DNA of 51,594 nucleotides, taken from positions 1-51,594 of IMG/VR virus record IMGVR_UViG_3300031276_000002. One strand, 5' to 3'. Shown piece by piece: positions 7,138 through 25,931 of this stretch. The notes below the pieces were generated by a model. The model had not been told where the DNA came from, made no database searches, and saw only the letters and a program-made list of their open reading frames with translations. The stretch is from a virus. A program made the translations under genes and the position numbers. Every line of letters starts with the position of its first letter. Position 1 is the first letter of the stretch.

Positions 7138-7348
7138 TATTTTTCTCCTCGATATTTGTTACCAAAAAATTATAAAGTGTTTCTATTTTAGTTATTCCAG
7201 GATCATCAATCTTTTTGTACTTGAGAGCTTGTAGCCAATGGTAGCTCAGCCCCGTACATTGTGCAATATTTTGCAACGTATCTTTACTGTTATTAAGTAA
7301 ATAAATCGTCTGATTAAGTAGTGTTTCCGGGCTTTTTTTAACAGTCAA
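7130..7348 (-). CDS. Cro/CI-like HTH regulator (TTG start)
   Basis: A 72-residue protein with a helix-turn-helix pattern in which residues 27-45 (LQNIAQCTGLSYHWLQAL) read as the motif. The size fits a Cro-type repressor. The reading frame is open far upstream, but the start is best placed at the TTG at 7348, which has AAAGGA 7 nt upstream and lies just downstream of the leftward promoter. Longer versions would run through both promoters and into 7452-7579. As first gene of the leftward operon, beside palindromic operators, it probably controls the divergent promoters. Confidence 0.7.
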   Translation of the reverse strand: MTVKKSPETLLNQTIYLLNNSKDTLQNIAQCTGLSYHWLQALKYKKIDDPGITKIETLYNFLVTNIEEKNNA

Positions 7349-7376
7349 TATTTTTTCCTTTCTAGGTTTTTTTCGC

Positions 7377-7405
7377 TTGCACACGTAATATATTACGCGT
7401 AATAT
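7377..7405 (+). promoter_or_regulatory. Rightward early promoter
   Basis: The -35 box TTGCAC (7377-7382) is followed after 17 bp by the -10 box TAATAT (7400-7405). It points toward the gene at 7452, which has AAGGAG just before its ATG. The spacer is filled by overlapping palindromes. Confidence 0.65.
7384..7405. promoter_or_regulatory. Overlapping operator palindromes
   Basis: Two perfect palindromes overlap: CGTAATATATTACG at 7384-7397 and ATATTACGCGTAATAT at 7390-7405. They cover the spacers and -10 boxes of both divergent promoters and are the best candidate binding sites for the Cro-like protein encoded just downstream. Confidence 0.6.
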
Positions 7406-7418
7406 CTTAGGAGCGCAA
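7390..7418 (-). promoter_or_regulatory. Leftward early promoter
   Basis: On the minus strand TTGCGC (7418-7413) is followed after 17 bp by TAATAT (7395-7390), heading into the Cro-like gene. It is interleaved with the rightward promoter. Its -35 element is also one arm of the inverted repeat GCGCAA/TTGCGC at 7413-7432. Confidence 0.65.
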
Positions 7419-7451
7419 CAAAAAGTTTGCGCAAAAAAACAAGGAGAAAAA

Positions 7452-7691
7452 ATGATTTTAAAAATTAGAATGAGTAGGCATGGAAGCCTGTTATTAAATA
7501 CTTGTCCGGCTGATGCTATAACGAGATCATTCCCAGTAAAAGTAGGATCAATAGTATGTGCGGAATGTCCGCACAACAAAAGAACAGATTATGAAAAAAT
7601 GGAAGTTGAATGCTGCTATTCACAAGATTTAAAAAGCAAAAAAGAACAATTTGTAGAATATGTATTAAAAAATAAATTAGCCAATAAATAA
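7452..7691 (+). CDS. Cys-rich small early protein
   Basis: First gene of the rightward operon, 79 aa. It has a strong ribosome site (ACAAGGAG) directly after the promoter region. The centre has a Cys cluster (CPAD..., CAECPH, ECC) that may bind a metal. The function is unknown. The leader matches 16 nt of the putative antisense small RNA (7434-7449), so translation of this gene may be its target. Confidence 0.6.
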   Translation: MILKIRMSRHGSLLLNTCPADAITRSFPVKVGSIVCAECPHNKRTDYEKMEVECCYSQDLKSKKEQFVEYVLKNKLANK

Positions 7692-15267: not shown

Positions 15268-16869
15268 ATGATTAAATTAAGACAGTATCAAAAAGAAGCA
15301 GTCAAATCAGTTCTTAATTATTTTAAAACAAAAAAAGGAAATCCTATAGTAGCTTTACCAACTGGAACTGGTAAGAGTCTTATAATTGCTGCTTTAATTA
15401 GATACTATACAGAGCATTTATTAAATAAAAGAGTATTAATACTTACTCATGTAAAAGAGTTGCTAGAACAAAATGCAAAAACAACAAATAGTTTTTGTAA
15501 CAATCCTGATATTGGATTTTATTCCGCAGGTTTAAATAAACGAGATATTTTTCAGCCTATTATTTTTGCTGGTATTGCTTCTGTATATAAAAAACATGAA
15601 GAGCTTACGCAAATAGGACACTTCGATTTAATTATAATAGATGAGTGCCATCTTGTTCCTGATAATAAAAACACAATGTATCGAAAATTATTAAATGAAA
15701 TTTCCACAACATGCAGAGTTGTTGGATTGAGCGCTACGCCTTATAGATTAAATTCCGGTCTACTCACTAACGGAAAAATATTTGACAACGTTTGTTATGA
15801 TGGAACAAAGCTTGATGATTTTAATAGGTTTATAGATGATGGCTTTTTATCGCCACTTATAGCAAGAGAAACAAAACAGCAGTTAGATATATCAAAAGTA
15901 CATAAACGTGGAGGTGATTATATACAAAAAGAATTGCAACTTGCAGTTGATAAATATTCCATAACAAAAAATGCAATAGAAGAAATGATTGAGTTAGCAA
16001 AAGATAGAAAACATTGGCTTATATTTTCTACTGGTGTTGACCATAGTGAACACATCGTTAATGAATTGTGGAAACATAAAATACCAGCTGCAAGTATTGA
16101 TTACAAATGCACATCACTAGAGCGATATGATCGAATACAGAATTTTAGAAATGGTCAATATCGTGCTCTTGTTAATGCTAACATTTTAACTACCGGTTTT
16201 GATTTTCCTGGAATAGATATGATTGGAATGCTGCGTCCTATGTGCTCACCCGGTTTATGGGTGCAGTCACTAGGCCGTGGAACGCGTCCATGCGAAGGTA
16301 AAGACAACTGCCTCGTATTAGATTACGCAGGCAATACAAGGCGATTAGGACCTATTAATGATGTTATTTTACCAACCGGAAAAACTAGAAGTGGAAAAGG
16401 ACATGCGCCAATAAAAAAATGTCCGAAGTGCAATGCTCTTGTGCATCTTAGTCTAAAGGAATGCCAATCTTGTGGATACGCTTTTCCGGTATCCACAAAT
16501 CTAGATGATAAGGCGGATAGTTTAAAATTAATTGCAACAAAAAATAATCGAGAAGATAATTGGATAGCTGTTAACAGAGTAACCTACATCTCTTACGGTA
16601 AATACAAAGATGGACGTGTATCTAAATCGCTAAAAGTAACTTATTTTTGTAAAAATAATATTACCGTTTATGAGTGGATTAATTTTAATTCTCGACACCA
16701 TTATCCACGATATAGAGCAGGCGTGTGGTGGCGACAACGATCTATGAGTACTGTACCTACTACATTACAGGAGGCGCTTAATCGGTTAGCAGATCTGACT
16801 CCACCTAAATTTATAAAAGTTCGTAAAGTAAAAAATTTCAATGAAATCACTGACATACGCTTTAAATAA
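15268..16869 (+). CDS. SF2 DEAD/DEAH-box DNA helicase with C-terminal zinc ribbon
   Basis: A 533-residue protein. Motif I is LPTGTGKS (residues 30-37), motif II DECH (125-128), motif III SATPYRL, and motif VI QSLGRGTRP near residue 340. A CPKC...CQSC zinc ribbon follows around 388-407 and a C-terminal domain completes it. Architecture and length fit RadD/Ssl2-like phage helicases, which unwind or remodel DNA in recombination and repair. It follows the Cas4-like gene and ends the recombination operon before the accessory cassette. No strong ribosome site was seen, so the start is less certain. Confidence 0.85.
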   Translation: MIKLRQYQKEAVKSVLNYFKTKKGNPIVALPTGTGKSLIIAALIRYYTEHLLNKRVLILTHVKELLEQNAKTTNSFCNNPDIGFYSAGLNKRDIFQPIIFAGIASVYKKHEELTQIGHFDLIIIDECHLVPDNKNTMYRKLLNEISTTCRVVGLSATPYRLNSGLLTNGKIFDNVCYDGTKLDDFNRFIDDGFLSPLIARETKQQLDISKVHKRGGDYIQKELQLAVDKYSITKNAIEEMIELAKDRKHWLIFSTGVDHSEHIVNELWKHKIPAASIDYKCTSLERYDRIQNFRNGQYRALVNANILTTGFDFPGIDMIGMLRPMCSPGLWVQSLGRGTRPCEGKDNCLVLDYAGNTRRLGPINDVILPTGKTRSGKGHAPIKKCPKCNALVHLSLKECQSCGYAFPVSTNLDDKADSLKLIATKNNREDNWIAVNRVTYISYGKYKDGRVSKSLKVTYFCKNNITVYEWINFNSRHHYPRYRAGVWWRQRSMSTVPTTLQEALNRLADLTPPKFIKVRKVKNFNEITDIRFK

Positions 16870-16885
16870 CTTTTTTTGCTCTTTG

Positions 16886-16942
16886 TTGTTGACACACCTG
16901 AGTGTGTGAGTAATAATCCTATTATCAGGTGGCAATAAAGCC
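16886..16942 (+). repeat. 57-bp direct repeat, copy 1 (promoter and operator)
   Basis: It matches 19396-19452 with a single difference (16898 C versus 19408 A). It contains TTGACA at 16889-16894, an AATAAT or TAATAA box at 16911-16917, and the palindrome ACACAC/GTGTGT (16892-16907) over the spacer. Confidence 0.9.
16889..16917 (+). promoter_or_regulatory. Cassette promoter with operator-like palindrome
   Basis: A consensus -35 TTGACA (16889-16894) is followed after 17 bp by AATAAT (16912-16917). TAATAA at 16-bp spacing is an alternative. The ACACAC...GTGTGT inverted repeat covers -35 and spacer and is kept in the second copy, apart from its unpaired centre, as expected of a repressor site. 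It drives the IbrA/IbrB-like operon. Confidence 0.65.
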
Positions 16943-16965
16943 ACATATAAACAAGGAGAAATAAA

Positions 16966-17286
16966 ATGACAACTTATTTCGTAAAAATAGCAAATCCGCA
17001 AATGGAAGAATATATTATCAGCGCCGATACTCCTATTGAGGCAGCAACAAAAGCTTCAAAAATGGCAGTTGTAGAGTTAATACCGACTATTGGACAAGCT
17101 TGTAATGATATTAGGGTAACGTGGAATAATAAAACAGTTACACCTTGCGAATCAGAAGACATTTTCGATGGATTACTAAAAAAACAAGAGTCTCACGAAT
17201 ATTTTGACTATGCAGATTTCTGGTGGGATGAAAACGGCATAATATTACAAAACGATGAAGGTTCGATGTTTGGTGAACATGAATGA
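16966..17286 (+). CDS. Accessory-cassette hypothetical protein, 106 aa
   Basis: The first gene of the promoter-bracketed cassette. It has a good site (ACAAGGAG) before its ATG, and the stop overlaps the next ATG (ATGA). The sequence is an acidic mixed alpha/beta protein with an aromatic C-terminal half (YFDYADFWWDE). The family is not recognised. Its leader matches 14 nt of the putative antisense small RNA. Confidence 0.55.
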   Translation: MTTYFVKIANPQMEEYIISADTPIEAATKASKMAVVELIPTIGQACNDIRVTWNNKTVTPCESEDIFDGLLKKQESHEYFDYADFWWDENGIILQNDEGSMFGEHE

Positions 17287-17681
17287 AAGCAAATTTAAAA
17301 ATAGAAGCTATCGGATATAATAGCGATCAAAAAAATCGACTTTGGACACAGATCCTTGATGGTATTTCAGATGGTCTTGGTAAGACAATAAGAATGCCAA
17401 GACGATATTGGGTAGCTGAGATAACTGGTAAGCACCCGGTGTTCAAGTTTGAACGCACATTTCTTAAGGGAAAAACTGACTACAAAACTTCTAATTCAAT
17501 GTCAAGCAGGGGTGTGTTTTTGAATTATATATTGGAATCAGGTCACATATATGAAGCAAGTCATCCAACATCGTGGAAGAGCACGTTAAGATATTTTGCA
17601 ACAGTATCAAACACAGGAGAAATAATCCGACACAGGAGTTATGAAGGTGCCAAAGCGTTTATTGAATCAGAACGTTTATGA
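17283..17681 (+). CDS. Accessory-cassette hypothetical protein, 132 aa
   Basis: A basic, beta-rich protein of unknown family. It is coupled by ATGA to the previous gene and overlaps the IbrA-like gene by about 35 nt. Such overlaps argue that the four cassette genes are cotranslated and act together. No domain is recognised. Confidence 0.55.
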   Translation: MKANLKIEAIGYNSDQKNRLWTQILDGISDGLGKTIRMPRRYWVAEITGKHPVFKFERTFLKGKTDYKTSNSMSSRGVFLNYILESGHIYEASHPTSWKSTLRYFATVSNTGEIIRHRSYEGAKAFIESERL

Positions 17682-18843
17682 CGCAGCTACAGAGAGAATA
17701 CGGATCGTATTTGACAATTTCCCAATGATTTACATCTCATTCAGTGGGGGAAAAGATAGCTCTGTGATGCTTCATATGGTTATGGAAGAAGCTATTCGAC
17801 GAAATAGGAAAGTTGGAGTTCTGTTTGTAGATCTTGAGGGTCAATATAAATTAACGATTGACCACATTCAGGAGTGTTACAATGAATACTCAGATCGGAT
17901 AATTCCTTTTTGGGTATGCCTTCCGATCCATCTTCGTAATGCCGTTTCACAATATCAGCCACACTGGATATGCTGGGATCCGGATGAAAAGGAACGATGG
18001 ATCCGTACGCCGCCGAAAATGGCAATAACTGATGAAAAATATTTTCCATTCTTCAAGAGTGGAATGGAGTTTGAGGAGTTTGTTCCTAATTTCGGTAAAT
18101 GGTATGGTAACGAAAACCTTACAGCTTGTTTTGTAGGTATTCGAACAGATGAATCTCTAAACAGATATAGAACTATTGCATCTCGTAAAAAGCAAACATT
18201 TGAAAAGCATCAGTGGACAACATGGCTTGGTGATGGCTTATACAATGTTTATCCAATTTACGATTGGAAAACTCGCGATATTTGGATTTATAATACCAAA
18301 TATAAAAAGGCATATAATAGACTTTATGATAGAATGCATCAAGCTGGGCTATCAATACATCAACAAAGGATTTGTCAGCCATACGGTGACGACCAGAGAA
18401 AAGGGCTTTGGCTGTTCCATATTATTGAGCCGGAAACATGGAGTAAGGTAGTTGCACGCGTATCAGGAGCGAATCAAGGAGCGTTATACGCAAACGATAC
18501 AGGTAATATTCTTGGTGTCGGACGAATAGTCAAGCCAGAAGGACATACTTGGGAATCCTTTTCTATGCTATTACTTGAGAGTATGCCAGAAAAAACAGCC
18601 GAGCATTTTAAAAATAAAATAGCTGTTTTTTTAAAATGGTATGAATCGAGGGGTTATTCTGATGGGATACCTGACAACGGACCATTAGATAAACAATATC
18701 CAAGCTGGAAGAGAATATGTAAGTCGCTCCTTAGAAATGATTACTGGTGCAAAGGTCTAAGCTTCACACAACATAAAAGTGAAGCATATGATAAGTATCT
18801 AAAACTCATGAAAAGGAAACGAGCACAATGGCAGCTGATTTAA
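17647..18843 (+). CDS. ibrA-like: PAPS-reductase-like protein of the IbrA/DUF3440 type
   Basis: A 398-residue protein when begun at the GTG at 17647, whose AGGAG is 8 nt away. The ATG at 17641 is only 2 nt from that site. The PP-loop is SFSGGKDSS at residues 31-39, the ATP-pyrophosphatase signature of PAPS reductases and DndC-like enzymes. Length and the following ParB-like gene fit IbrA, first described in E. coli as part of the IbrAB regulator of eib genes and common in phages. The molecular activity is not known. Base composition looks slightly less AT-rich than the neighbours. Confidence 0.8.
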   Translation: MPKRLLNQNVYDAATERIRIVFDNFPMIYISFSGGKDSSVMLHMVMEEAIRRNRKVGVLFVDLEGQYKLTIDHIQECYNEYSDRIIPFWVCLPIHLRNAVSQYQPHWICWDPDEKERWIRTPPKMAITDEKYFPFFKSGMEFEEFVPNFGKWYGNENLTACFVGIRTDESLNRYRTIASRKKQTFEKHQWTTWLGDGLYNVYPIYDWKTRDIWIYNTKYKKAYNRLYDRMHQAGLSIHQQRICQPYGDDQRKGLWLFHIIEPETWSKVVARVSGANQGALYANDTGNILGVGRIVKPEGHTWESFSMLLLESMPEKTAEHFKNKIAVFLKWYESRGYSDGIPDNGPLDKQYPSWKRICKSLLRNDYWCKGLSFTQHKSEAYDKYLKLMKRKRAQWQLI

Positions 18844-19349
18844 AATGGACAAAAGAACATCCGGTGAGCCGCGTTCGATGGGTACCAGCTAAAAAAGTAA
18901 TTGCAAATGATTACAATCCTAACGCCGTAGCGCCGCCTGAGATGAAACTTTTGGCAATAAGCATTAAAAAAGATGGGTACACGCAACCAATCGTTGTGTG
19001 GTTAAATGAAAATGGACTTTACGAGGTTGTAGACGGATTCCACAGATACCGCGTTGGAACTGAAATTCTTAAACTATCACACTTACCTGTTGTTATTATT
19101 AACGATAACAGGACTAACAGAGGAGATCGTATTGCATCTACTATTCGTCACAATAGAGCTAGAGGAAAGCATAAAATTTCAGAAATGTCTGAAATTGTTC
19201 AAGAGCTAGCTAGAAGAAACTGGAGCGATAAAAAGATCGGGAAAGAGCTTGGTATGGAACAGGACGAAGTTCTTCGACTTAAACAAATTTCTGGGCTTGC
19301 TGAATTGTTCAGTGATGAAGAATTTTCAACAGCATGGGAGGCTGAATGA
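18828..19349 (+). CDS. ibrB-like: ParB-like partner protein of the IbrB type
   Basis: A 173-residue protein with the ParB/Srx N-terminal fold: a strand with VPAKKVIANDYNPN, the DGYTQPIVVW helix-strand unit, and VVDGFHRYR, the conserved 'GxHR' turn that binds nucleotide in ParB/Srx proteins. An HTH-like segment (SDKKIGKELGMEQDEVLRL) follows at about 130-150. It overlaps the IbrA-like gene by 16 nt. The pair order PAPS-reductase-like then ParB-like is that of IbrA-IbrB. Confidence 0.8.
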   Translation: MAADLKWTKEHPVSRVRWVPAKKVIANDYNPNAVAPPEMKLLAISIKKDGYTQPIVVWLNENGLYEVVDGFHRYRVGTEILKLSHLPVVIINDNRTNRGDRIASTIRHNRARGKHKISEMSEIVQELARRNWSDKKIGKELGMEQDEVLRLKQISGLAELFSDEEFSTAWEAE

Positions 19350-19365
19350 GCACTAAATAGGTAAT

Positions 19366-19397
19366 AAAATTATTTTTGATTAATTTTTATTTTTTTT
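19366..19397 (+). terminator. Weak AT-only terminator ending the IbrAB-like cassette
   Basis: The arms AAAATTA (19366-19372) and TAATTTT (19381-19387) form a 7-bp stem followed by a T-rich run up to the second promoter repeat. Stability is low, so this is a suggestion only. Confidence 0.35.
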
Positions 19398-19452
19398 GTT
19401 GACACACATGAGTGTGTGAGTAATAATCCTATTATCAGGTGGCAATAAAGCC
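19396..19452 (+). repeat. 57-bp direct repeat, copy 2 (promoter and operator)
   Basis: It is identical to 16886-16942 except at 19408. It carries TTGACA (19399-19404), the ACACAC/GTGTGT palindrome and the AATAAT box, so it is a second promoter, here driving the 19476 gene and the repeat-protein cassette. Confidence 0.9.
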
Positions 19453-19475
19453 GCCGAAAAAAAGGAGAAGAGAAA

Positions 19476-19661
19476 ATGACTATAGGATTTGACGCAATCG
19501 AAATGAAAAGAGTAAATTCAGAGGTAACCCTAAATAAATATGCTGACCCGATTGAAGGTGAACGCTTCGACCTCACCATCGAAGAAGCTGAAGACATAGC
19601 TAGCGTAGATCCGAGTCTTATTTATTTTGAGCCATCAGAGACGATGACTAGACTGATTTGA
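19476..19661 (+). CDS. Small acidic hypothetical protein, 61 aa
   Basis: It is expressed from the second copy of the cassette promoter, with AAGGAG upstream of its ATG. It is acidic with no recognised domain. Its last five codons (MTRLI) and stop lie inside the first 102-bp repeat, which shows the repeat junction replaced the original gene end or was captured with it. Confidence 0.55.
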   Translation: MTIGFDAIEMKRVNSEVTLNKYADPIEGERFDLTIEEAEDIASVDPSLIYFEPSETMTRLI

Positions 19662-19741
19662 CCTCCATCCCGCCCATCACTCCGGTGGTGGACGGCAGTG
19701 GGAGCCAAATTAATTGGCAAAAAACAAGGAGAAAAAAATGA
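19640..19741 (+). repeat. 102-bp direct repeat, copy 1 (hairpin plus ribosome site)
   Basis: It matches 20790-20891 with two substitutions (GAC versus TGC at 19691-19693). It carries an 11-bp stem closed by a TCCG (UNCG-type) tetraloop (19670-19695) and ends in a ribosome site and start codon. Confidence 0.9.
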
Positions 19742-20487
19742 AACGTGCATTGAAAAAAAATAAAAAACAATACTGGGGTGATCTTTCTGGTGTTCGTGGC
19801 GATCTCTCTTACGTTCGGGGCGATCTATCTAACGTTCGTGGCGACCTATCTGGTATTCTGGGCGATCTCTCTTACGTTCGGGGCGATCTATCTAACGTTC
19901 GTGGCGATCTATCTGGTATTCTGGGCGATCTATCTGATGTTCACGGCAACCTAGCAGGCGTTCGTGGTGACCTATCTAGCATACGAGGTGACATAACTGG
20001 TGTTAGGGGAAATCTCTCTTATGTTCATGGCGATCTCTCTTACGTTCGGGGTGATCTATCTAGCGTTCATGGCGACCTATCTGGTATTCTTGGCGATCTA
20101 TCTTATGCTATAGGTGACCTAACTTACGTTCGTGGTGACCTATCTAGCATACGAGGTGACATAACTGGTGTTAGGGGAAATCTCTCTTATGTTCGTGGCG
20201 ATCTCTCTTACGTTCGTGGCGATTTATCTTATGCTCGTGGCGATCTCTCTTATGTTCGTGGCGATCTATCTAGGGTTTGGGGCGATCTATCTAACGTTCG
20301 TGGCGACCTATCTGGTATTCTGGGCGATCTATCTAGCGTTTGGGGCGATCTATCTAACGTTCGTGGCGACCTAACTGGTGTTTTGGGTGATCTATCTGAC
20401 GTGATTGGAGATATGGATGTATGCGAAATAAAAAAAGAGGATAGAGAAAACGGGATTTATATTGAGGATCTTATTATAATTGAATGA
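19738..20487 (+). CDS. Heptapeptide-repeat (GDLSxVR) beta-solenoid-like protein
   Basis: A 249-residue protein with a basic 13-residue start followed by 30 tandem heptads of consensus G-D-L-S-x-V-R (residues 14-223). It ends with a cap (GDMDVCEIKKEDRENGIYIEDLI). The 7-residue period with Gly-Asp and alternating hydrophobics suggests a parallel beta-helix. I recall other phage and bacterial proteins with GD/GN-type solenoid repeats and the same CEI...GI.I.DL cap, all of unknown function. The ATG at 19738 has AAGGAG upstream. The in-frame TTG at 19714 is unlikely. Confidence 0.7.
   Translation: MKRALKKNKKQYWGDLSGVRGDLSYVRGDLSNVRGDLSGILGDLSYVRGDLSNVRGDLSGILGDLSDVHGNLAGVRGDLSSIRGDITGVRGNLSYVHGDLSYVRGDLSSVHGDLSGILGDLSYAIGDLTYVRGDLSSIRGDITGVRGNLSYVRGDLSYVRGDLSYARGDLSYVRGDLSRVWGDLSNVRGDLSGILGDLSSVWGDLSNVRGDLTGVLGDLSDVIGDMDVCEIKKEDRENGIYIEDLIIIE
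19777..20406 (+). repeat. 21-bp tandem repeat, 30 units
   Basis: Each unit encodes one GDLSxVR heptad. Neighbouring units differ mainly at the variable codon, and blocks of three units (for example the triplet ending GIL) recur, which shows expansion by multi-unit duplication. Confidence 0.85.
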
Positions 20488-20510
20488 CGACAAAAACAAG
20501 GAGAAAGAAA

Positions 20511-20801
20511 ATGACTTTTACAGAAATGTATGAAACAGCTCGCAAACTTTATGTTGAAACACACAGACCCATAAACCCAGTGATACGGTATTTTAGCGAT
20601 GGAGATTGGGCAATCAGGTCAGAGCTCACACTGGACGACGCTGTCGAGGCGCAATGTGAACTCGACTCGTTGTATTCGTTTTTCCAGGAAGTTGACTCGT
20701 ATGATCCAGACAGTAACGGATACATACCGAGTGACGAAGACGAGAAAGCGTTTCTGGAGGCTTTGCAAGAGCATGCCACCGAAATCCGCGACGATGACTA
20801 G
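20511..20801 (+). CDS. Hypothetical acidic protein, 96 aa
   Basis: The start is placed at 20511 with ACAAGGAG upstream. An ATG at 20484 overlaps the previous stop but lacks a site. The protein is strongly acidic (SDGDW, DSYDPDSNGY, DEDEKAF) and helical. No family is recognised. DNA-mimic function is possible for such a protein but unproven. Its stop lies within the second 102-bp repeat, read in another frame than in copy 1. GC content is higher than in core genes. Confidence 0.55.
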   Translation: MTFTEMYETARKLYVETHRPINPVIRYFSDGDWAIRSELTLDDAVEAQCELDSLYSFFQEVDSYDPDSNGYIPSDEDEKAFLEALQEHATEIRDDD

Positions 20802-20891
20802 ACTGATTTGACCTCCATCCCGCCCATCACTCCGGTGGTGTGCGGCAGTGGGAGCCAAATTAATTGGCAAAAAACAAGGAGAAAAAAATGA
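20790..20891 (+). repeat. 102-bp direct repeat, copy 2
   Basis: It differs from 19640-19741 at two positions, both in the hairpin stem (20841-20842). The stem CCGCCCATCAC (20820-20830), TCCG loop and 3' arm (20835-20845) again give 10 of 11 pairs, with the single mismatch moved by one position. Confidence 0.9.
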
Positions 20892-21247
20892 CGACAGTAA
20901 AAGAAAGTATACGTATAATGAATCCTTCGACTGAACTGAAATGTAAGTGCGTAGATTCGATAAGATACTTAATAGATGTAGCAACTGAATTCGAATATGA
21001 TTTTGTTATCGTGGATGGACACCCTGTTGCGACCGTGCATGGTGTTGATAAACTAGATACTTGCGGTTATCCGCGTGAAGCTGCCTCTATGGTTGATTCT
21101 GGAATTACAGGTATGCAAAAGATATATCACCCTTGGGACTGTGAGATCGTCGACGGTGAGCTTATTGAACGTAGTGGATATTATCCACAGTATCGATGGT
21201 TATTTGTTCCGCTAAATGAAGTGTTGACAATACTGGACCAAAAATAA
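20888..21247 (+). CDS. Hypothetical protein, 119 aa
   Basis: It starts at the ATG ending the second 102-bp repeat, with AAGGAG upstream. The sequence is mixed alpha/beta with three Cys and a Trp-rich C-terminal half. No family is recognised. The codon choice is more GC-rich than that of the replication genes, in keeping with acquisition by transfer. Confidence 0.55.
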   Translation: MTTVKESIRIMNPSTELKCKCVDSIRYLIDVATEFEYDFVIVDGHPVATVHGVDKLDTCGYPREAASMVDSGITGMQKIYHPWDCEIVDGELIERSGYYPQYRWLFVPLNEVLTILDQK

Positions 21248-21248
21248 T

Positions 21249-21286
21249 TGACACCCACCATGCCGGTCACGAAAGTGATCGGTGGG
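21249..21286 (+). repeat. GAAA-loop hairpin between cassette genes, copy 1
   Basis: The element opens with TGACACCCACC. Its core stem pairs CCGGTCAC (21263-21270) with GTGATCGG (21275-21282) around a GAAA tetraloop, and CCCA/TGGG can extend it. It precedes the 21325 gene. Confidence 0.7.
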
Positions 21287-21324
21287 ATTGACTGCCTGTC
21301 TTGGGCATAACAACGGAGAGAAAA

Positions 21325-21690
21325 ATGCAGAAAGAAACTTACAAATTCAACGCAAGGTATAAAGATGTCGATTTCAAAAGGATCCTCGAAGAGAATCCAT
21401 GTGCAGATTTTATCGAGGTGAAGTGGGCAAAGATCGAAGGGCGTCCCTACGGCGGGTTCGTAATCGTAACCGATTCTGGCTACGAGCGGCTGCGCAAGGC
21501 TGCGATGAACACACCAAGAAGATACGCGAACGCCAGAATTAATCCGGACGGTATCGGGTGGCGTCATGATCCATATGGTAGTGGCGGGATCCGAATCATC
21601 GACAGTGTTGATGCATTTAAGAGTGTGTTTGCAAAGCTCCGTGAGAGGGAGTGTCGAAAGTACGAGATTAAAGTGACTGCAATCGAGTAA
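21325..21690 (+). CDS. Hypothetical protein, 121 aa
   Basis: The start at 21325 has CGGAGAG upstream, and an earlier in-frame start codon lies in the hairpin leader. It is a basic alpha/beta protein with several Arg/Lys pairs and no recognised domain. It is one of the most GC-rich stretches of the window, so probably a recent import. It lies between two copies of the GAAA hairpin element. Confidence 0.55.
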   Translation: MQKETYKFNARYKDVDFKRILEENPCADFIEVKWAKIEGRPYGGFVIVTDSGYERLRKAAMNTPRRYANARINPDGIGWRHDPYGSGGIRIIDSVDAFKSVFAKLRERECRKYEIKVTAIE

Positions 21691-21693
21691 GGC

Positions 21694-21723
21694 TGACACC
21701 CACCCTGCCGACCACGAAAGTGG
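21694..21723 (+). repeat. GAAA-loop hairpin between cassette genes, copy 2
   Basis: It shares TGACACCCACC and the GAAA loop with 21249-21286. The stem is CCAC/GTGG. One T-A pair of copy 1 (21267-21278) is C-G here, a compensatory change that supports an RNA structure. Confidence 0.65.
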
Positions 21724-21747
21724 CTGAACGGATACTAGCAATAGACT

Positions 21748-22017
21748 ATGGCAAACGCCAAATTAGAGAGAATAGAAAATATTAAAATGAATAAAGCATT
21801 AAAAATACTTTTGGACAATGGGTATACTATTACGAATAACAGGCTCATTCACATTAATGAGGCATTAAAATTATCTGGAAAAAAAGAAATCGAATTACTT
21901 GAATATTCGCACGGTAAAAATAATAATGAAATAATGAAACATTATTATAAAAATTGTTTAAAAGTAGGAACTATAACAAGAAAAAATACTAAATATAATA
22001 TATGGGCAATTTGGTAG
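21748..22017 (+). CDS. Hypothetical basic protein, 89 aa
   Basis: A basic helical protein with a possible winged-helix look (LLDNGYTITNN...). The start is uncertain: the ATG at 21748 has no clear ribosome site, and an in-frame ATG at 21787 would drop 13 residues. It follows the second GAAA hairpin. The function is unknown. Composition returns to the AT-rich core style. Confidence 0.5.
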   Translation: MANAKLERIENIKMNKALKILLDNGYTITNNRLIHINEALKLSGKKEIELLEYSHGKNNNEIMKHYYKNCLKVGTITRKNTKYNIWAIW

Positions 22018-22050
22018 TTGACAAAAAATAATTTGTAAACTAATAATCAA

Positions 22051-22071
22051 AAAGGAGAATTTAAAATGTAA
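22051..22071 (+). promoter_or_regulatory. Start-stop element (ribosome site plus ATG-TAA)
   Basis: A strong AAGGAG (22052-22057) precedes an ATG at 22066-22068 that is followed at once by TAA (22069-22071). It could trap initiating ribosomes in the leader of the H1-like gene, or be the remnant of a deleted gene. Confidence 0.5.
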
Positions 22072-22109
22072 TTCTTGATCAACTAAAAAGAATAGGAGTA
22101 AAAGAAAAA

Positions 22110-22892
22110 ATGCCAAAATTAAGAAACAAAGAACAAGCAATCAAGTTGCTCGGAATAATAAGGGCAACAGGAGGTCGTGAAAATAGAAGTAAAGCAAATC
22201 CACAGTTATATGCTGCAATATTCGGCGGTATTACGCCACGTAATATACAAGACATTCTAATTGACTTATTGACAAATAAATTAATTGAGTATAAAGAAGA
22301 AAAAGGCACTGTAATATATAGTGTTATAGAGAAAGGGTTTGAGTTACTTCCAGATAGACAAAAGCTTATTGACTATTACAATAAGTTTTCGGACTTAGAA
22401 AATCAATACGCAGGTAAAGAAAACAAAGTGAAAGGAAATTCGACAATGGCAAAAAAGAAAATTGAAGTATCCACAATTGAAACAAATGAAACCCCAAAGA
22501 AAAAGAAAACATCGAAAAAAGCTATTGCAAAAAAAGCTGCTATAAAGAAAGTAGCGGCTAAAAAAGAAGTGCCAAAAAAAGCAGCTACAAAAAAGGTAGG
22601 AACAAAGAAGACAATCACAAAAAAGAAAGACGAAAAAGCAGCAACAAAAAGAGGTAGAAAACCAACTGCATATGAGAGTGATGCAATTCCAGCAAGAGAG
22701 GGAACAAAGAAGTATCAGATCTGGAAAGAACTGAACAATATGCGAAAGCGTAGAAAAAATCTCGCTTCTACAGCCGAGATTATGGAAAAACTCGGGACGA
22801 AGTACGGTGCTGGAAGTGTATCTGTCACACTTATGGCATGGCGAAAACATAATGGACTGAAGCCTGAAAGACAGAGAAGATCAAAGCAATAA
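22110..22892 (+). CDS. Histone-H1-like protein with HTH-like ends
   Basis: A 260-residue protein. Residues 1-100 look like a winged-helix domain (TPRNIQDILIDLLTNKLIEYKEEKGTVIY). Residues 125-195 are a Lys/Ala/Pro-rich linker like bacterial H1 tails (KKAAIKKVAAKK). A short C-terminal domain (205-250) has a conserved-looking STAEIMEKLG...VSVTLMAWRKH. It probably binds DNA, as chromatin-like packer or regulator. An in-frame ATG at 22446 with AAAGGA upstream could give a shorter H1-like product. It leads the replication module. Confidence 0.6.
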   Translation: MPKLRNKEQAIKLLGIIRATGGRENRSKANPQLYAAIFGGITPRNIQDILIDLLTNKLIEYKEEKGTVIYSVIEKGFELLPDRQKLIDYYNKFSDLENQYAGKENKVKGNSTMAKKKIEVSTIETNETPKKKKTSKKAIAKKAAIKKVAAKKEVPKKAATKKVGTKKTITKKKDEKAATKRGRKPTAYESDAIPAREGTKKYQIWKELNNMRKRRKNLASTAEIMEKLGTKYGAGSVSVTLMAWRKHNGLKPERQRRSKQ

Positions 22893-22940
22893 AAAACACT
22901 TTCAAAATTCATCTCAGTAGCAAAGAATAGGAGACATTGT

Positions 22941-23924
22941 ATGCTATCTGCTGTTAATTTCATCGCTGGAAGTATATCAACGAGTGACTTGATACCAGCA
23001 CTTAAAAGAATAAATATTTGTGATAGCACACTTAGCACTTGCGATGGAATTATAACAGCGAAAGCTGAATTCAAATATCCACAATGTGGAAACATTGAAT
23101 GCAGTGTTGATGGTAAAAAATTTGTTGCTGCAATAAAATCTATTTCATCATTAGAGTCATTAACATTAGAACAGACTAAATCAAATCTTATAATAAAGAG
23201 TAATAACTTTAAAGCTTATCTTCCAATAGATGCTTATATAGAACATTCCTTATCAGCATTAGATGCTTCAAACACTATAGAAATAAAAAACAGTGACTTT
23301 AAAGACGCATTAAAAAGCCTTACGCCTTTTATTGCAGTTGACGGTCAAACGTATTGGGCAGGTGGTGTTCTTCTAAAAGGATCTTCTTTATTTGCTACTG
23401 ATAGTAAAACGCTTATCCAAAAAAAACTTCCGTTCAAAGCTCCAATAAATATTGTAATACCTTTTCAAGCAGTTAAAGAAATCCTTAGAAATAAAGAAGA
23501 TCCTACTGAGATTATTTTTAATGAAAAAATACTGCGCGTTCAATATGGTTCATCACGCTTCTTGGATATAAGTACTATAGACGCTGATTGGCCACCAATT
23601 GAAAAATTACTTAATGACGCTAACTACTCTAATTGTAAATCAATACCTTCTAATTTTTTTGATAACATAAATAAACTTAAAAAATTTGTTGGAGAAGAAA
23701 ACAATCTGTACATATTAAATGGATATTTAAGAACAAGCAGCAATAAAAAAACAGGTGCTGTAATAAAAGGCGCTCCTAAATGCAAAGCTTTATTTGATAT
23801 TGATCAAATATTAAATTTAAAAGGAGTTGCAACTAAAATTGATTTTAGTAAATGGCCGAACAACGTCCCTTTCTTAGGCCATAAATTAAGAGGGATCCTG
23901 TCTGGAAAACAAGGGAATTTTTAA
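22941..23924 (+). CDS. DnaN-like sliding clamp
   Basis: This 327-residue protein reads as a divergent bacterial beta clamp: three repeats of strand-rich sequence, 'NIVIPFQAVKEIL' in the position of the DnaN IPxK segment, and 'RFLDISTIDADWPPIEKLL' like the conserved domain-2/3 link. Clamps encircle DNA and tether the polymerase. Its gene is directly followed by the family A polymerase, so it likely serves that enzyme. The start has TAGGAG upstream. The usual length is about 366, so this is slightly short. Confidence 0.72.
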   Translation: MLSAVNFIAGSISTSDLIPALKRINICDSTLSTCDGIITAKAEFKYPQCGNIECSVDGKKFVAAIKSISSLESLTLEQTKSNLIIKSNNFKAYLPIDAYIEHSLSALDASNTIEIKNSDFKDALKSLTPFIAVDGQTYWAGGVLLKGSSLFATDSKTLIQKKLPFKAPINIVIPFQAVKEILRNKEDPTEIIFNEKILRVQYGSSRFLDISTIDADWPPIEKLLNDANYSNCKSIPSNFFDNINKLKKFVGEENNLYILNGYLRTSSNKKTGAVIKGAPKCKALFDIDQILNLKGVATKIDFSKWPNNVPFLGHKLRGILSGKQGNF

Positions 23925-25931
23925 TTGTCTTTATTTTGGGATACAGATATAAAAACACGTAAACGTGTTACAAGGATACCTCCGTTTCCACATACCGGAT
24001 GGAAAGCTCCCAAAGAATTTCCGCGTCTATCTAATGCATCTGTAATAGGTTTGGATACAGAAACATATGACCCTGGATTAAAACTTAGAGGACCGGGGTG
24101 GGCAAGAAAAGAAGGCCATATTGTCGGCGTTTCTATTGCCGCTGATACTGATGGTAAATGGTATTTTCCAATTCGTCATGAGGTTTGTGTTTCTGAAAAT
24201 TTAAATCCTAAAAAAGTTATTGCTTGGCTTAAAGATGTTTTATCCACATCACAGCCTAAGGTTGGTGCTAATCTTATTTACGATCTAGGATGGCTTGAAG
24301 AAGAAGACATTATAGTAAATGGGGAATTATTTGATGTACAAAATGCAGAAGCGTTGCTTGTAGAAAACGAAAAAGTAGGCCTTGATTATTTAGGTGAACG
24401 CTACTTAGGAGAAGGTAAGGAAACGCAGAAGCTGTATCAATGGCTATCTGAACGATATGGTGGAAAACCAACCTCGGATCAAAGAGCAAATATATACAGA
24501 GCACCACCTAGTTTAGTCGGTCCTTATGCTGAACAGGATGCAGATTTACCAATTCAAATAATTCCTTTTCAAGCTAAAAAATTAAAAAAAGAAAATTTAT
24601 GGAATCTATTTAGAAGAGAAAATAAACTTATTAGACTGCTTATAAGAATGAGGCAGCACGGTGTTCGCGTTGATGTGGATAAAGCAGAACAGGTTAGTGA
24701 GAAACTTAATATAGAATTAATAAATGAACAAAAAGCACTTGATTGGCTTTGTAAACAGAAAGTAAATGTAAATGCTAATGCGAGTATTCAATCAGCATTT
24801 GACAGCTTAGGTGTTGGCTATCCGTACACACCTAGCGGTAATCCTAGTTTTACAAAAGACTTTTTAAAATCATGTCGACATCCAATTGGACAAAAAATTA
24901 TCGACATTAGAAAATTGTCAAAACTTAAAAATGATTTTGTGGATAAAGCTATTCTTGATCACAATGTTAATGGACGTATACATTGTGTATTCCATCAATT
25001 AAAATCTGATAGCAACGGTGCTCGTTCTGGTAGGTTATCTGCTACAGATCCTAATTTACAACAGGTTCCTAGCAGAGATAAAAAATTAGCGCCTTTAGTA
25101 CGTGGTTGTTTTGTACCAGATTACGGACATAAACAATTTAAACGACAAGATGCTTCTCAAGTTGAGTACAGATTTTTAGTTAATTATGCAGTTGGTAAAA
25201 GTGGAAAATTAATAAGAAGTGCATATAATAAAAATCCGTTTACTGATTATCATAAGCTAACACAAGATCTTGTTAAGAATGAAACTGGAATATTTTTAGA
25301 TCGAAAACCAATTAAAAATATTAATTTTGGTATTGTATATGGAATGCAAGTGTATAAATTATCGCGTCAATTAAACATACCATTAGATGAAGCTGAACAT
25401 TTATTAAATGCATACCATGAAGGCGCACCGTTTGTTAAAGATACTATGGACTACTGCTCTAATTTTGCATCGCAAACAGGATATATAACAACAATACTCG
25501 GTAGAAGATCTAGATTTAATTTGTGGGAACCAGCAGATTATTCCGGACCAAAAGATAGTAAGCCACCCGCACTTCCATACAAAGCAGCGCTTAAAAACTA
25601 TGGTGGAAATATTACGCGTGCTTGGGTTTATCGCGCGTTAAATAGAAGGCTACAAGGAAGTTCTGCTGACTTAATGAAAGAGAGCATGCTACAGTGTGAT
25701 GAAGCGGGTTACTTTGATGAGATAGGCGTCCCATTGCTTACAATACATGATGAGCTTGGGTTTTCAGATCCAGGCGGAAAGGATAAAATATTTAAAGAAA
25801 TTATGACTACGTGTGAGAATGCAATAAAAATAAAAATACCAATTATAATTGAAGAAGAAACCGGTCCTGATTGGGGACACACTAAACTAACAAAAGCATG
25901 TAAATTAAGAAAGGAAAATTATAACAAATGA
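23925..25931 (+). CDS. polA-like: Family A DNA polymerase with 3'-5' exonuclease
   Basis: A 668-residue enzyme. The DEDDy exonuclease is seen as D44-x-E46 (GLDTETYDP), D120 (GANLIYD) and Y201...D205. Polymerase motif A is QDASQVEYR (D409), motif B RKPIKNINFGIVYG (R460, K464, F468, Y472), and motif C IHDE (H608, D609, E610). No 5'-3' exonuclease domain is present, as in most phage PolA enzymes. The gene starts at TTG one base after the clamp stop, so the two are coupled. It is the main replicative polymerase of the phage. Confidence 0.93.
   Translation: MSLFWDTDIKTRKRVTRIPPFPHTGWKAPKEFPRLSNASVIGLDTETYDPGLKLRGPGWARKEGHIVGVSIAADTDGKWYFPIRHEVCVSENLNPKKVIAWLKDVLSTSQPKVGANLIYDLGWLEEEDIIVNGELFDVQNAEALLVENEKVGLDYLGERYLGEGKETQKLYQWLSERYGGKPTSDQRANIYRAPPSLVGPYAEQDADLPIQIIPFQAKKLKKENLWNLFRRENKLIRLLIRMRQHGVRVDVDKAEQVSEKLNIELINEQKALDWLCKQKVNVNANASIQSAFDSLGVGYPYTPSGNPSFTKDFLKSCRHPIGQKIIDIRKLSKLKNDFVDKAILDHNVNGRIHCVFHQLKSDSNGARSGRLSATDPNLQQVPSRDKKLAPLVRGCFVPDYGHKQFKRQDASQVEYRFLVNYAVGKSGKLIRSAYNKNPFTDYHKLTQDLVKNETGIFLDRKPIKNINFGIVYGMQVYKLSRQLNIPLDEAEHLLNAYHEGAPFVKDTMDYCSNFASQTGYITTILGRRSRFNLWEPADYSGPKDSKPPALPYKAALKNYGGNITRAWVYRALNRRLQGSSADLMKESMLQCDEAGYFDEIGVPLLTIHDELGFSDPGGKDKIFKEIMTTCENAIKIKIPIIIEEETGPDWGHTKLTKACKLRKENYNK

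Follow-up and report, generated by a model that had tools for sequence, protein, structure and literature searches.

An IbrA/IbrB gene pair, headed by a promoter-like leader whose near-identical copy stands before the next gene, lies between a helicase gene and a sliding clamp gene in the 51,594-nucleotide stretch of viral DNA that we analysed (hereafter the window), in the interval where relatives usually keep a 7-deazaguanine DNA-modification cluster. With moderate confidence, we read this interval as an exchangeable slot, the twin leaders R1a and R1b as early promoters that arose through leader duplication, the genes between them as a deletable cassette, and IbrAB as a pair that probably acts on DNA. 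Phages are already known to carry cassettes that combine a promoter with cargo; as far as our searches show, what is new here is the twin private leader and the presence of IbrAB in place of the deazaguanine cluster.

The leaders, the hairpins found in them by RNA folding, and the gene that follows the second copy are these:

16886..16942, plus strand: leader R1a, TTGACA-17-AATAAT with a CACAC/GTGTG dyad in the spacer
16929..16946, plus strand: hairpin GTGGC-AATAAA-GCCAC before the ribosome-binding site of orfA
19396..19452, plus strand: leader R1b, 56/57 identical to R1a
19437..19455, plus strand: hairpin GGTGGC-AATAAA-GCCGCC before the ribosome-binding site of the 61-aa gene
19476..19661, plus strand: 61-aa gene (open reading frame) behind R1b

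Direct comparison confirmed the original prediction that the two 57-bp copies differ at a single base, and that base lies in the centre of the dyad. The alignment can be carried on to 61 positions, 59 of them matching, and a looser similarity (97 nt at 84%) continues up to the start codons of both following genes. The longest exact repeat shared by the copies is 44 nt, as against at most 20 nt in 60 surrogates generated from the window with an order-2 Markov model. The predicted TTGACA, AATAAT and ACACAC/GTGTGT operator motifs are likewise present in each copy, the dyad taking the form CACAC-NTGA-GTGTG; within the window, this dyad and the downstream core of R1 each occur only in these two places. 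We scored promoters on the assumption that they are of the sigma-70 type. TTGACA-17-AATAAT (11/12) is found in both copies, and the window holds 4 sites of this score where 2.8 are expected, so that the score alone is not above chance; by simple arithmetic, one such site would fall by chance within any particular 57 nt with a probability of about 0.001. What gives the putative promoter weight is therefore not its score but its location: it stands at the start of a gene, within an intergenic leader that is duplicated.

Folded as RNA, R1a and R1b form two hairpins each (z −3.5 and −5.3). The second, which the original prediction had missed, lies directly 5′ of the ribosome-binding site in both copies, and its 3′ arm, which falls partly beyond the 57 identical bases, pairs in both despite reading GCCAC in one and GCCGCC in the other. 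An Rfam search returned nothing above chance. The IbrAB cassette has the promoter-like R1a at its start, and we found no terminator-like site at its end. We identified no cognate repressor for the R1 dyad, and the small ORF at 7140-7348 (minus strand), considered as a candidate, gave no helix-turn-helix match. Divergent from that ORF is a leader of similar design (7372-7455), situated before the gene at 7452, with TTGCAC-17-TAATAT, the palindrome TATTACGCGTAATA and a GCGCAA hairpin ahead of the ribosome-binding site.

Four genes lie between the two leaders:

16966..17286, plus strand: orfA, 106 aa; structure model with pLDDT 38, unusable
17283..17681, plus strand: orfB, 132 aa, phrog_26647, kept before ibrA in some other phages
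17641..18843, plus strand: ibrA, PP-loop protein with PAPS_reduct and DUF3440 domains (profile matches)
18828..19349, plus strand: ibrB, ParB_N/sulfiredoxin-type protein with a DGFHR motif (ParB_N above cut-off)

These genes overlap by 4 (orfA/orfB), 41 (orfB/ibrA) and 16 nt (ibrA/ibrB), and the open reading frames and domain matches bear out the earlier description of four overlapping genes that include a PAPS-reductase-like/ParB-like pair. IbrA has both expected Pfam domains above their cut-offs (phrog_2302, E 7e-89) and is adjoined, across the 16-nt overlap, by a ParB-type IbrB, which places the two in the IbrA/IbrB family. OrfA had no family match and no detected relative, and for OrfB we found neither a known fold nor a solved structural relative. 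The PP-loop S-G-K-D-S is invariant across 16 IbrA proteins, as are many other residues, while no cysteine is invariant or nearly so. PAPS reductase carries a catalytic cysteine, and IbrA, which has no conserved one and scores far below the NCBIfam cut-offs, is probably not a PAPS reductase. The absence of an invariant cysteine makes sulfonucleotide reduction or cysteine-mediated sulfur transfer unlikely, and the simplest inference is an ATP-dependent adenylating activity. Identification of IbrA as a DndC-type phosphorothioation enzyme was rejected (TIGR03183, 23 bits against a cut-off of 290, cysteines missing).

The cassette lies in an interval of 6071 bp (16870-22940) that holds IbrAB and small genes, and whose borders and right-hand neighbour are collinear in relatives:

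15268..16869, plus strand: DEAD/ResIII helicase, phrog_16 (profile match), left border of the slot
22941..23924, plus strand: DNA polymerase sliding clamp, right border of the slot
23925..25931, plus strand: DNA polymerase I

The gene order Sak4-DUF669-Cas4-helicase-slot-clamp-polymerase, in which the first three encode a Sak4-like ATPase, a DUF669 protein and a Cas4-like exonuclease, is common to the window and to Queuovirinae-type phages of many hosts, and the window's replication module belongs with theirs. We compared 16 relatives, taken from match lists and not at random, many of them kin to one another (in one, S0112, the stretch examined starts after the helicase). In 13 the slot carries a 7-deazaguanine cluster (relatives of queE, queC, queD, folE and dpdA), and in three it is nearly empty: 534 bp in Paracoccus phage vB_PmaS-R3, 407 bp in Acinetobacter phage vB_AbaS_D0 and 830 bp in Stenotrophomonas phage BUCT626. 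The window itself has no queE, queC, queD, folE or dpdA match. In phage CAjan, the 7-deazaguanine pathway was shown to protect phage DNA from restriction enzymes (PMC6884629). Because the slot holds this cluster in relatives, and the pathway is protective in CAjan, IbrAB sits in a cargo slot for DNA modification, a setting that the original prediction had overlooked. Outside the replication module, the structural genes at 26660-51494 look contractile-tailed by eye (sheath-like and baseplate J-like proteins), and the lambda gpA-like terminase is near 31% identical to that of AcaML1; what looks like a contractile-type structural part is joined here to a Queuovirinae-type replication module.

IbrA/IbrB is present in hundreds of phages, among them mutually unrelated ones, and in many bacterial genomes; IbrB is near IbrA at 85 of 87 viral loci. 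The pair is not tied to the helicase-clamp slot in general. A DEAD helicase lies within 3 kb of IbrAB at 5 of the 87 viral loci, no more than chance may give, so a general IbrAB-helicase link, suggested by adjacency in Pika, CR28, phiFN37, Mwe-JY13 and Amjad_SA, was set aside as showing no enrichment. No deazaguanine gene was found at any of the 87 loci in the DNA examined around each, and 15 full phage records with IbrAB gave a distant helicase in three and a weak polymerase match in one. On one separate phage fragment (L141), IbrB/IbrA directly follows Sak4-DUF669-Cas4-helicase, and on two others (L145 and L150) IbrA adjoins the same Cas4 module; these placements mark IbrAB as mobile cargo, which appears to have come into this replication module on more than one occasion. 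In several phages of Firmicutes or Fusobacterium (L056, L052, L053, L178, L180, L201, L221 and L228), IbrAB is adjoined by a helicase of another kind, about 390 aa long, which lies within 3 kb of the pair at 11 of 80 bacterial loci, possibly as part of a three-gene system. In Fusobacterium phage phiFN37 (L056:9763-11048), a ParB-like gene overlaps an annotated queuine tRNA-ribosyltransferase about 3 kb from that phage's own IbrAB and helicase; the similarity of its product to IbrB was too weak for us to count it as one.

OrfB precedes ibrA in several other phages, and the overlapping orfB-ibrA-ibrB arrangement recurs in Chlorobiaceae phage CV-1-33. The leader, by contrast, is private: none of 124 other IbrAB loci has flanking direct repeats of at least 30 nt, and the R1 core has no real match in IMG/VR or GenBank phages. 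The leader therefore appears native to this phage lineage, and it probably did not come in with the IbrAB cassette. Most likely, the cassette was inserted next to a leader already in place, which became duplicated, much as the R2 pair described below brackets genes of its own. No close relatives, one carrying the cassette and one lacking it, came to light, and the insertion step was thus not observed directly; nor did IMG/VR yield any close relatives of this phage's helicase or polymerase.

Beyond R1b, further duplicated leaders that the original prediction had missed span 19634-21790, together with small genes that we refer to as the island:

19634..19741, plus strand: leader R2a, two hairpins, cUCCGg tetraloop (RNA folding)
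19738..20487, plus strand: open reading frame for a protein of mostly heptapeptide repeats (GDLSxxR-type)
20511..20801, plus strand: small gene (open reading frame) in the R2-bracketed cassette
20784..20891, plus strand: leader R2b, 96-98% identical to R2a
20891..21247, plus strand: 118-aa island gene (open reading frame)
21248..21324, plus strand: leader R3a, a cGAAAg hairpin and a second hairpin, R2 family (RNA folding)
21325..21690, plus strand: 121-aa island gene (open reading frame), GC3 0.53
21693..21788, plus strand: leader R3b, related to R2 (RNA folding)

R2a and R2b are identical at 100 of 102 nt and bracket the heptapeptide-repeat gene and its neighbour. R2 and R3 form a second leader family, different from R1. 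Since the R2 and R3 pairs bracket the next genes, duplicated leaders are a habit of this region. IMG/VR matches to the R2 and R3 patterns do not share the full element. One crossover between the R2 copies would delete 1150 bp. The gene at 19738-20487 consists almost wholly of a 21-nt repeat and likely encodes a solenoid or forms an unstable array; elsewhere in the window, a tandem gene duplication (10831-11262/11313-11684) is 86% identical over 300 nt, the copies lying 482 nt apart.

The repeat with its dyad, the gene order, the slot and the private nature of the leader are established by the sequence comparisons, and together they suggest the following picture. The helicase-to-clamp interval would be an exchangeable cargo slot whose first cargo is a four-gene operon, orfA-orfB-ibrA-ibrB, under R1a, with the next transcription unit under R1b. 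R1a and R1b are most probably early promoters of the sigma-70 type; a repressor could plausibly bind the dyad that lies between −35 and −10, and the 5′ untranslated RNA of each is predicted to form the hairpin just before the ribosome-binding site. Both units would thus be switched together, and the dyad would be the candidate site for the common repressor that the original prediction proposed; the two leaders are likely promoters, or start-proximal leaders, that are used together. The cassette most likely entered the slot with duplication of the resident leader, and homologous recombination between R1a and R1b would delete 2510 bp and leave one intact leader. The original prediction that a single recombination would lose everything between the copies agrees with this, in that a crossover, judged from the sequence, would remove exactly the four genes.

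That prediction had also described the cassette as a moron-like insertion that brought or copied its own promoter. The mobile-cargo part of this stands, given IbrAB in unrelated phages, the nearly empty slot in three relatives of the module and another cluster in 13, albeit in distant relatives; the base composition of the moron-like insertion is also shifted, modestly (GC3 0.26-0.33 against 0.17-0.26), and GC3 over the slot genes is 0.26-0.53 against 0.17-0.26 in the core genes. That IbrAB arrived from another phage together with its own promoter, the leader before the 61-aa gene being a later copy, would suit both its mobility and the raised GC3, but the lack of flanking repeats at the 124 other loci and of any R1 copy in IMG/VR or GenBank phages makes this unlikely, and copying of a resident leader fits better. 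The two leaders might also have been falsely merged at the 44-nt exact repeat in a metagenomic contig, since the record is of IMG/VR type and some k-mers used in assembly are longer than 44 nt; this is very improbable, as the flanks of the copies differ, each copy leads correctly into a gene, and the gene order on both sides of the slot matches relatives.

A more serious contender, which we regard as possible while still favouring promoters, is that the repeats are RNA elements and not operators, their hairpins governing how the mRNA of each cassette is processed, stabilised or translated when early transcription reads through, with TTGACA and AATAAT incidental. All six island leaders have hairpins, R2 and R3 have no clear −10 box, and a hairpin lies within 20 nt of the ribosome-binding site in 5 of 8 island genes as against 2 of 32 elsewhere, a descriptive figure because the island was defined after looking. 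The R2/R3 loops are cUCCGg or cGAAAg with one pair changed on both sides, although this covariation comes from just four sequences and does not clearly beat shuffles. Against an RNA-only role, the 11/12 promoter with its 17-nt spacing sits exactly in the duplicated part of R1. With regard to the gene products, IbrAB could work as paired transcription co-activators of genes in the phage or in prophages, with R1 among the targets. As cited in a later paper, the founding pair was named and its function described in E. coli ECOR-9, where it activates prophage eib genes (Sandt 2002, cited in PMC10434257), and IbrB is of the ParB type, a class with DNA-binding members; we met no other stated IbrAB function in the literature. 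We doubt this account here, since the complete, invariant PP-loop and other invariant residues of IbrA suggest catalysis, and R1 dyads do not accompany IbrAB elsewhere.

We favour instead a joint action on phage or host DNA, in modification or protection, as the probable role of IbrA, a PP-loop protein of the ATP-dependent adenylating type, and its ParB/Srx-type partner IbrB, with co-activation less likely. This remains speculative, and draws on the slot, the PP-loop and the company that ParBc proteins keep with AMP-forming ligases, which they accompany in a proven phage base-hypermodification system (PMC12783734). In its most specific form, which we hold only tentatively and think rather unlikely to be right throughout, IbrA would adenylate a group carried by DNA or by a precursor of it while IbrB binds DNA, replacing the 7-deazaguanine pathway in this lineage; orfB and orfA would be accessory, and a second cassette would be tied to the first via the duplicated promoter-hairpin leader in an exchangeable slot. 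The position is more interesting than the repeat itself. What has been reported on the activity of IbrA/IbrB is a 2002 genetic result, and its place in a slot that relatives use for a DNA-modification pathway proven by experiment may point to a role on DNA and offers a testable clue to function. The twin leaders illustrate how a single crossover could add cargo to such a slot or remove it, with a working promoter retained.

Compared with known systems, the leaders resemble the PeSL of T4-type phages, described in work cited elsewhere (Arbiol 2010, Comeau 2014, cited in PMC4503421) as repeated intergenic promoters with a stem-loop. As far as those citations go, both place promoter and stem-loop repeats among small shuffled genes and allow recombination between cassettes, but the present phage is not T4-type, has two (R1) to four copies and no U-tract terminator, and its R2/R3 have no clear −10 box, so we do not class its leaders as PeSL. 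IbrA shares the PP-loop fold and weak profile matches with the phosphorothioation enzymes DndC/BrxP; it differs in scoring far below their cut-offs, in having no invariant cysteine and in that no Dnd or Ssp partners were seen. The 7-deazaguanine (dpd/queuosine-type) cluster of Queuovirinae-type phages occupies the same slot, and its QueC is, like IbrA, a PP-loop protein, whereas none of the cluster's genes is found in the window. Another counterpart is the IbrA/IbrB pair itself (phrog_2302/phrog_2159), represented by gene7/gene8 of CV-1-33. The twin R1 leaders, the helicase-clamp placement and orfA set the window apart from it; both domain architectures, their adjacency and their overlap are shared, the two proteins are 65% and 73% identical, and orfB lies upstream there too.
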